64,000 nucleotides of DNA from an uncultured Flavobacteriaceae bacterium. GTDB lineage: Bacteria > Bacteroidota > Bacteroidia > Flavobacteriales > Flavobacteriaceae. The notes under the pieces were generated by a model. That model was not told the origin of the DNA. It worked only from the letters and a program-made list of their open reading frames with translations, and did no database searches. Numbering within the stretch: position 1 is the first letter of the stretch; every line of letters starts with the position of its first letter. Where the stretch lies: positions 1 to 64,000 of the forward strand of contig CANNAC010000014.1 in NCBI GenBank assembly GCA_947502495.1, in the 5' to 3' direction. Of this stretch, positions 42,145 through 43,827 are shown in pieces. The position numbers and the translations under genes were made by a program.

Positions 42145-42930
42145 ATGTCTATGCGTAAACAACCTATTGGTATTTTTGATTCTGGTGTTGGTGGCACTTC
42201 TATATGGAGAGCGCTTCATGCTTTACTTCCGCATGAGCATACTATTTATTTGGCAGATAGTAAATATGCCCCTTATGGAAACAAAAGCAAAGAAGAGATT
42301 CTTGCATTGAGTAAAAAGAACACAGAATTATTACTACATAAAGGTTGTAAACTAATTGTGGTAGCTTGTAATACAGCAACTACAAACGCTATTCACCATT
42401 TACGTGAACATTATAACGTGCCTTTTATTGGTATTGAGCCAGCCATTAAACCCGCTGCTTTAAATACCAAAACAAAAGCGATTGGTATTCTTGCTACTAA
42501 GGGCACCTTATCTAGCGATTTGTTTCATAAAACAACCGATTTATTTACCAATGGCATTCAGGTTATAGAGCAAGTTGGAGAAGGAATTGTTCCTTTAATT
42601 GAAAATGGTAATGTAGATAGTAAAGAAATGAAAGCCCTGCTGCAAGTGTACTTAAAACCGATGCTAGATGCCAATATAGATTATCTGGTTTTAGGCTGTA
42701 CACACTATCCGTATTTAATGCAACAGTTATTAGAAATACTACCGAGCCATGTAAAGATTATTGATTCTGGTGAAGCAGTTGCAAAACAAACAAAAACGGT
42801 TTTAAGACAGCATGATCTTTTAAATAATACGACTAACATACCGAACTTACAATTTTATTCTAACGGAAACCCAAAAGTCATGTCTCAACTTTTAGGAGAA
42901 GGTTTTACTGGTCAATATTTAGATTTTTAA
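42145..42930 (+). CDS. murI: Glutamate racemase
   Basis: A 261-residue racemase that makes D-glutamate for peptidoglycan. The Asp/Glu racemase signatures are complete: IGIFDSGVGGTSIW at 8-21, VVACNTATT with catalytic Cys at about 74, and LGCTHYPYLMQ with the second Cys at about 186. Start ATG 42145 is in a 57-bp gap after the ompH terminator, so it is transcribed alone or from a nearby start. It is the last plus-strand gene of this block. Confidence 0.95.
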   Translation: MSMRKQPIGIFDSGVGGTSIWRALHALLPHEHTIYLADSKYAPYGNKSKEEILALSKKNTELLLHKGCKLIVVACNTATTNAIHHLREHYNVPFIGIEPAIKPAALNTKTKAIGILATKGTLSSDLFHKTTDLFTNGIQVIEQVGEGIVPLIENGNVDSKEMKALLQVYLKPMLDANIDYLVLGCTHYPYLMQQLLEILPSHVKIIDSGEAVAKQTKTVLRQHDLLNNTTNIPNLQFYSNGNPKVMSQLLGEGFTGQYLDF

Positions 42931-43117: not shown

Positions 43118-43164
43118 AAAAAAACAAAGGAAACAGCATGACATTTTATCCAGTGTTTCCTTTG
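43118..43164 (-). terminator. Terminator of TPP riboswitch (expression platform)
   Basis: On the minus strand CAAAGGAAACA/TGTTTCCTTTG (11 bp, perfect) is followed by seven T. It begins six bases after the riboswitch P1 stem, the usual place for a transcription-attenuating platform. Confidence 0.8.
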
Positions 43165-43170
43165 CAAGTC

Positions 43171-43250
43171 GTATTCCTACTTTGGCATTATCCAATCCAG
43201 TATTATGAGTATGTTCTCAGCCACTAATGTAAGTTTAGGCACCTCAATAC
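43171..43250 (-). promoter_or_regulatory. TPP riboswitch (THI element)
   Basis: The minus strand shows the TPP aptamer landmarks in order: P1 strand GTATT (43246-43250), GGTGCC, GGCTGAGA (CTGAGA at 43215-43220), CTGGATTGGATAATGCC (GGATAATGCC at 43184-43193), then AGTAGG and the closing P1 strand AATAC (43171-43175). A promoter lies just upstream and a terminator just downstream. TPP riboswitches normally control thiamine synthesis or uptake, but no such gene lies downstream on the minus strand for about 8 kb. Confidence 0.85.
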
Positions 43251-43257
43251 AACAGAT

Positions 43258-43288
43258 TAAATATAGTAATTATTTTTAACTTAAACAA
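43258..43288 (-). promoter_or_regulatory. Promoter of the TPP riboswitch
   Basis: On the minus strand TTG (43286-43288), 20 bases, and TATATTTA (43258-43265) fit the Bacteroidota promoter with one mismatch in the -7 element. Transcription would start at about 43251, exactly at the aptamer's 5' end. Confidence 0.6.
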
Positions 43289-43311: not shown

Positions 43312-43827
43312 TTATTCTTTAAACCAACTAGAATACTTTACATAGTTTTCTGCAATGCGATTAATCTCCCCATGAATCAATTCTTTGCTAATGTCTTTTA
43401 CTTTTTTGGCTGGAACTCCTGCGTAAATGCTTCCTGCTTCTACTCTAGTGTTTGCTGTTACTACTGCTCCTGCCGCAACGATACTATTGCTTTCTATCAC
43501 GCAATCGTCCATTACAATGCTTCCCATGCCTATTAAAACATTATCGTGAATAGTACAACCATGCACGATGGCATTATGTCCTATAGAAACGTTGTTACCT
43601 ATAGTTGTTGGCGATTTTTGATAGGTTGCATGTATTACTGCCCCATCTTGTATGTTTACCTTATTTCCCATTTTAATAAAGTGTACATCGCCACGAATAA
43701 CGGCGTTAAACCACACGCTACATTGGCTTCCAAAACTTACTTCTCCAACGATGGTTGCATTTTCTGCTACGAAGCAGTCTTCTGGTATTTGTGGGTGTTT
43801 GTTGTTTACTGGTAGTATTACTGGCAT
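43312..43827 (-). CDS. Gamma-carbonic anhydrase-family protein
   Basis: A 171-residue left-handed beta-helix protein built of hexapeptide repeats. Likely zinc ligands are in VIHAT, SIGHNAIVHG (three His across about residues 67-89), which match the gamma-carbonic anhydrase family (CamH/YrdA/PaaY). The family's activity varies; YrdA-type proteins have unclear roles. It is a single gene, divergent from nothing closer than the 234-bp gap on its left and right sides, and its promoter region is AT-rich. Confidence 0.9.
   Translation of the reverse strand: MPVILPVNNKHPQIPEDCFVAENATIVGEVSFGSQCSVWFNAVIRGDVHFIKMGNKVNIQDGAVIHATYQKSPTTIGNNVSIGHNAIVHGCTIHDNVLIGMGSIVMDDCVIESNSIVAAGAVVTANTRVEAGSIYAGVPAKKVKDISKELIHGEINRIAENYVKYSSWFKE

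Follow-up and report, generated by a model that had tools for sequence, protein, structure and literature searches.

A terminated TPP-like aptamer as a candidate freestanding small RNA in the Flavobacteriaceae

Introduction

A riboswitch is normally identified through the gene under its control, and a TPP-like aptamer with no such gene raises the question of what it could be regulating. One is found in the stretch of 64,000 nucleotides from an uncultured Flavobacteriaceae bacterium that we analysed (the window), where a minus-strand TPP-like unit, running from 43288 to 43118, sits between murI and a gamma-carbonic-anhydrase-like gene. It is composed of a promoter of flavobacterial type followed by a TPP-like aptamer and a strong intrinsic terminator. 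A preliminary description of this DNA had read the same parts from the letters, saw no thiamine gene following on that strand, and offered three explanations: a remnant of a lost thiamine or TonB-receptor gene, a small RNA, or regulation of murI by antisense read-through. Here we weigh these and other readings by comparison across the family.

Organisation of the unit

All parts that had been described (P1, CTGAGA, GGATAATGCC, promoter and terminator) could be located on the minus strand between the two genes. The promoter (43258..43288) has a -7-like box, TATATTTA, at 43265-43258 and a TTG at 43288-43286, with a spacing of 20 nt. The aptamer (43158..43256), identified by its RF00059 match and by covariation over 60 distinct rows, includes a P1 of GUUGUAUU (43253-43246) with AAUACGAC (43175-43168), the CTGAGA at 43220-43215 and GGATAATGCC at 43193-43184. 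In the terminator (43118..43164), the stem pairs CAAAGGAAACA (43164-43154) with TGTTTCCTTTG (43135-43125) and a tract of seven U (43124-43118) forms the 3′ end. R1, a covariance model built from 10 units to cover aptamer and terminator together, places the whole unit at 43119..43257 and scores it at 152.6 bits, the window sequence being one of those used to build it; the predicted RNA of ~140 nt has no long ORF. Likewise, the longest ATG ORF has a median of 6 aa and a maximum of 20 across 58 units, and a peptide-coding role was rejected on these lengths. Counts over 58 units omit L087 and L187 (incomplete match), while those over 59 include L087.

The upstream neighbour (43312..43827, minus strand) encodes the gamma-carbonic-anhydrase-like hexapeptide protein (NCBIfam NF050158, 3.1e-47, below its cut-off) and its stop codon is 55 nt from the unit. 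On the other side lies the glutamate racemase gene murI (42145..42930, plus strand; TIGR00067, 218 bits, above its cut-off), with its stop 189 nt past the terminator end. The next gene is this convergent murI, and no thiamine gene follows the unit on its own strand. A match to Flavo-1 RNA (RF01705; 43039-43105, plus strand; 42.3 bits against a cut-off of 42) is also found in the interval separating the unit from murI, on the strand opposite the unit, and Flavo-1 matches are reported without a clear function in the accessible text of PMC9723704.

A scan for sigma-70 promoters and simple terminators listed neither signal at the window unit and was uninformative here. According to the same portion of PMC9723704, flavobacterial promoters follow TAnnTTTG, and of 58 distinct units, 54 had TAnnTTT no more than 20 nt from their start, compared with a mean of 12.7 and a maximum of 22 in 500 shuffles. 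However, only 14 of those 54 box-bearing units have a TTG at the upstream distance, which counts against the reading we favour below.

Support for the aptamer

RF00059 matched 43158-43256 with 41.9 bits (E 6.4e-7 for 501 bases and 1.2e-6 for the whole genome). This is under the curated gathering cut-off of 54.3 bits, and a gathering-threshold scan therefore misses the element. The preliminary description had named a score below threshold as grounds for giving the element up, and formally the window element falls on that side, although its E value is low; we overrule this objection because eight homologous units exceed the RF00059 cut-off. Two other TPP elements are present in the same genome; the first precedes thiC (65.4 bits) and the second a gene judged by eye to be TonB-receptor-like (30.2 bits).

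Plain folding of the window element was only moderately unusual (z -1.94, with 10 of 200 shuffles equally good), so the case for the element rests on conservation. Over 60 distinct rows, 93.4% of cells were paired and double changes occurred in 26 of 34 pairs; neither value was reached in any of 500 shuffles, and sliding the partners by 1 to 3 columns left 42 to 53% paired. That alignment was fitted to the covariance model, whereas a MAFFT alignment of 10 units, independent of the model, had double changes in 10 of the 34 pairs. In P1, pairing is kept more than sequence, the mean majority base being 75%.

Distribution within the family

Searching 397 family genomes with R1 at a threshold of 55 bits gave at least 40 places, 37 of which were counted as units, amounting to at least 37 units in at least 35 genomes and 25 genera. 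These are lower bounds, since 8 candidates were scored per genome under strict filters. Not counted were L088 and L089, which by eye start a receptor-like gene, and L087, with a gene 26 nt downstream. Carriers found by DNA pattern include Aequorivita, Gelidibacter, Altibacter, Marinirhabdus, Oceanihabitans, Lacinutrix and further Flavobacteriaceae. Outside the family, there was no match above 49.5 bits among 39 genomes representing 15 further families of the order, whose five weaker matches scored 40.3-49.5 bits, and in a phylum sample that included family genomes, 3 of 395 matched at E 1e-9 or better, namely the window's own genome and two of its family. Two genomes have a pair of units each, in different places (L055 and L081 in G253; L079 and L082 in G310).

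Of the 35 genomes with a unit, 4 had a thiC match, as did 79 of the 362 others (p 0.19). As this frequency is no different from the rest of the family, a link between the unit and thiamine synthesis was rejected. Genome G438 has two thiC matches, and at both of its loci L101 and L127 a thiC-like gene is preceded by a TPP element.

Neighbouring genes and termination

Downstream genes, taken as ATG ORFs of at least 80 aa rather than gene-finder calls, were tabulated for 39 units (the 37 survey units plus those of G003 and G006). The next gene was convergent in 29, the window unit included; the other 10 had a same-strand gene at a distance of 195-637 nt, which counts against a freestanding RNA. 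By comparison, the next gene was on the same strand, and never convergent, in all 42 ordinary TPP elements, of which unit-bearing genomes supplied 39 and G001, G004 and G267 the rest (Fisher p 8e-14, relatedness ignored). A Pfam scan of 29 downstream proteins found no thiamine family, with nine lacking a match and the others spread over many families. A set of 30 named loci, from which five were dropped as duplicate genomes and 24 tabulated (some of these also repeat genomes of the survey), had a convergent next gene in 18 cases, a same-strand gene in five and a contig edge in one. The unit thus recurs beside many different genes and looks like an independent thiamine-compound-sensing RNA rather than a leftover.

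Three Gelidibacter units count against a strict gene-less rule, since each lies 76-86 nt ahead of a same-strand gene (L184, 4921-5057, followed by nicotinate phosphoribosyltransferase, in G. gilvus; L185, 4120-4257; and L195, 1517-1654). This arrangement is a possible recruitment of the unit as a leader. In G267, L087 (2001-2130) is unit-like with a diverged terminator, 26 nt before an SMP-30/MRJP-like gene, and may represent a genuine attenuator that arose from the unit.

The lower terminator stem is conserved in pairing and in sequence alike, with the majority base in 94% and 96% of rows compared with 55% in the apical part and 75% in P1. When the terminator pattern alone was searched in 299 family genomes it gave seven matches, all preceded by a TPP-like aptamer, and no control matches. 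In predicted ensembles of 59 units the terminator formed in all 59 and P1 in 51, while P2 exceeded 0.5 in only 10; its weakness without ligand (median 0.24) also counts against the favoured reading. An antiterminator, with the 5′ arm held upstream, was predicted in only 2 of 59 when transcripts stopped short of the terminator's 3′ arm. It is therefore unlikely that the units generally work by switching termination, and a small RNA of ~140 nt is the expected product.

The same observations bear on controlled read-through in cis, by which the RNA would, without ligand, extend as an antisense transcript over the convergent gene or enter a same-strand gene. AspocR, a B12 riboswitch of Listeria described in the accessible text of PMC8079631, is a precedent, and the ten units with a same-strand gene, the Gelidibacter loci and L087, which was set aside from those counts, would all fit. 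Against this, the downstream gene is not conserved and varies by lineage, an antiterminator is all but absent from the predictions, and the window terminator stops short of the murI stop by the full 189 nt. We therefore consider read-through unlikely, and the antisense control of murI suggested earlier finds no support.

The ligand pocket

The pyrimidine-binding loop UGAGA (J3-2) is kept in 57 of 59 units, the window having CTGAGA. The C77-G78 motif of the pyrophosphate pocket, with positions taken from the accessible part of PMC3764141, was found in just 1 of 59 by a test with fixed spacing, which units longer by one base fail by length; the window has A77 and retains G78. This too counts against the favoured reading. 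Among ordinary TPP elements, labelled by eye from N-termini, the motif was present in 10 of 10 thiC, PnuT-type and other elements and in none of 32 of receptor type.

One explanation is that the aptamer fold has been retained without sensing of a thiamine compound, leaving a ligand-free structured RNA such as a protein decoy. Both the loss of C77-G78 and the window's score under the RF00059 cut-off speak for it, but the pyrimidine-binding loop is nearly always kept, covariation in the aptamer is strong, and eight units pass the cut-off. Moreover, since receptor-type TPP elements lack C77-G78 as well, its loss need not mean that sensing is lost. We regard a ligand-free RNA as improbable.

Receptor-type elements themselves may differ in ligand preference from those of thiC and PnuT type, as all 32 are without the motif (L003, L037, L038, L041, L042, L043, L114, L126, L128, L129, L131-L151 and L164, mostly near 1501-1630).

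Upstream context and gene order in the genus

The unit could also belong to the upstream gene, as its 3′-UTR element or terminator, and not be a separate RNA, given that this gene shares the strand of 26 of 39 units and in the window ends only 55 nt away. However, it is divergent in the other 13, and the promoter-like box intervenes in 54 of 58 units, which makes this explanation very doubtful.

Within the window's genus the unit is present in four of seven genomes, always between the carbonic anhydrase gene and murI. Aptamer and terminator are nearly identical in the four carriers, and the DNA between terminator and murI is unalignable in two of them. In the three congeners without it (G001, G002 and G004), the carbonic anhydrase gene adjoins murI across a clean gap with no other gene, despite carbonic anhydrase proteins that are 95-99% identical. 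The synteny comparison proposed in the preliminary description therefore gave no candidate for a gene that once followed, and the unit is either there in full or missing altogether, with no sign of a lost thiamine gene. A gene lost through assembly error, which had also been raised, is not the explanation because eight carriers in the family survey are single-contig genomes. That the unit is a relic in decay, left behind when a riboswitch lost its gene, as the missing gene and the window's low score might suggest, is scarcely credible when conservation with compensatory change extends over 25 genera, which refutes a relic for the family as a whole, and unit-less congeners have no extra gene at the site.

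Discussion

Comparison across the family shows a conserved unit with a TPP-like aptamer fold, a promoter-like box at the P1 base, a terminator immediately following P1, and no gene regularly placed in cis. On this basis the small RNA suggested for the single locus emerges as the best of the explanations and can be widened to a family: we think it reasonably probable that the unit encodes a non-coding RNA of ~140 nt that stands on its own, belongs to a Flavobacteriaceae family, senses a thiamine compound and probably acts in trans. Transcription would start from the box at the base of P1, the RNA would bind TPP or a relative, and occupancy would change its fold, stability or availability and thereby its action in trans. 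A partner RNA or protein would most likely be contacted through the conserved terminator-stem sequence, CAAAGGGAA / UUCCCUUUG; we infer this because terminators need pairing and yet here the sequence itself is conserved.

Two limited pairing searches, in seven genomes and against receptor leaders, found no RNA target, which counts against this small-RNA reading. In the seven genomes the terminator 3′ arm had 44 pairing sites with mRNAs, a count that takes in the sites of the units themselves, whereas the reversed pattern had 55; 24 of 25 sites inspected were within ORFs and there was no conserved start-region site. With receptor leaders, 18% of permutations were as good as native pairing when this was set against non-native pairing. 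AAAGGRAA/TTYCCTTT occurred in 3 of 42 ordinary TPP elements and their following 500 nt.

More tentatively, the altered pyrophosphate pocket might, in place of TPP or in addition to it, sense thiamine, its monophosphate or a breakdown product, in a gene-less dedicated aptamer RNA of the Flavobacteriaceae that acts in trans via its sequence-conserved terminator stem, mostly in thiC-lacking strains that presumably take up thiamine; we hold this fuller version to be possible but doubtful. A conserved aptamer RNA with no gene to control would move metabolite sensing into a free small RNA, encourage the search of Bacteroidota for targets acted on in trans, and provide a natural variant for probing the purpose of the pyrophosphate pocket in a well-studied riboswitch. 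The unit may be relevant to vitamin B1 exchange too, as 31 of 35 carriers have no match to thiC, though this is no more than in the rest of the family.

In the literature on orphan or trans-acting TPP riboswitches, flavobacterial riboswitches and variant TPP aptamers, in which subscription papers were thinly covered, no title or abstract describes the unit. It resembles the TPP riboswitch (THI element, RF00059) in its aptamer fold, CUGAGA loop and GG.UAAU.CC loop region, but as a rule lacks a controlled gene, has a fixed terminator sequence and has all but lost C77-G78. Nor is it placed as the cis leader of a controlled gene, the next gene being mostly convergent, as in the window. The TPP riboswitches of Bacteroides thetaiotaomicron share its phylum and aptamer class, but the three reported in the accessible parts of PMC5613172 and PMC7366714 precede thiamine synthesis or transport genes and none is freestanding. 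Its nearest precedents appear to be the Listeria RNAs SreA, Rli55 and AspocR, as portrayed in the available text of PMC8079631. Rli55 and AspocR are B12 riboswitches controlling non-coding or antisense RNA, and likewise tie an aptamer to a non-coding RNA, but their ligand chooses between a short and a long RNA, whereas the unit has no predicted long form or antiterminator as a rule. A ligand-switched terminator before the antisense region of a fixed gene, as for AspocR, does not describe it either, since an antiterminator is predicted so rarely and the convergent gene varies. SreA, a SAM riboswitch with activity in trans, also controls an operon in cis, and trans action of the unit is putative, but the two are alike in that a terminated aptamer RNA may serve as a regulator in trans.
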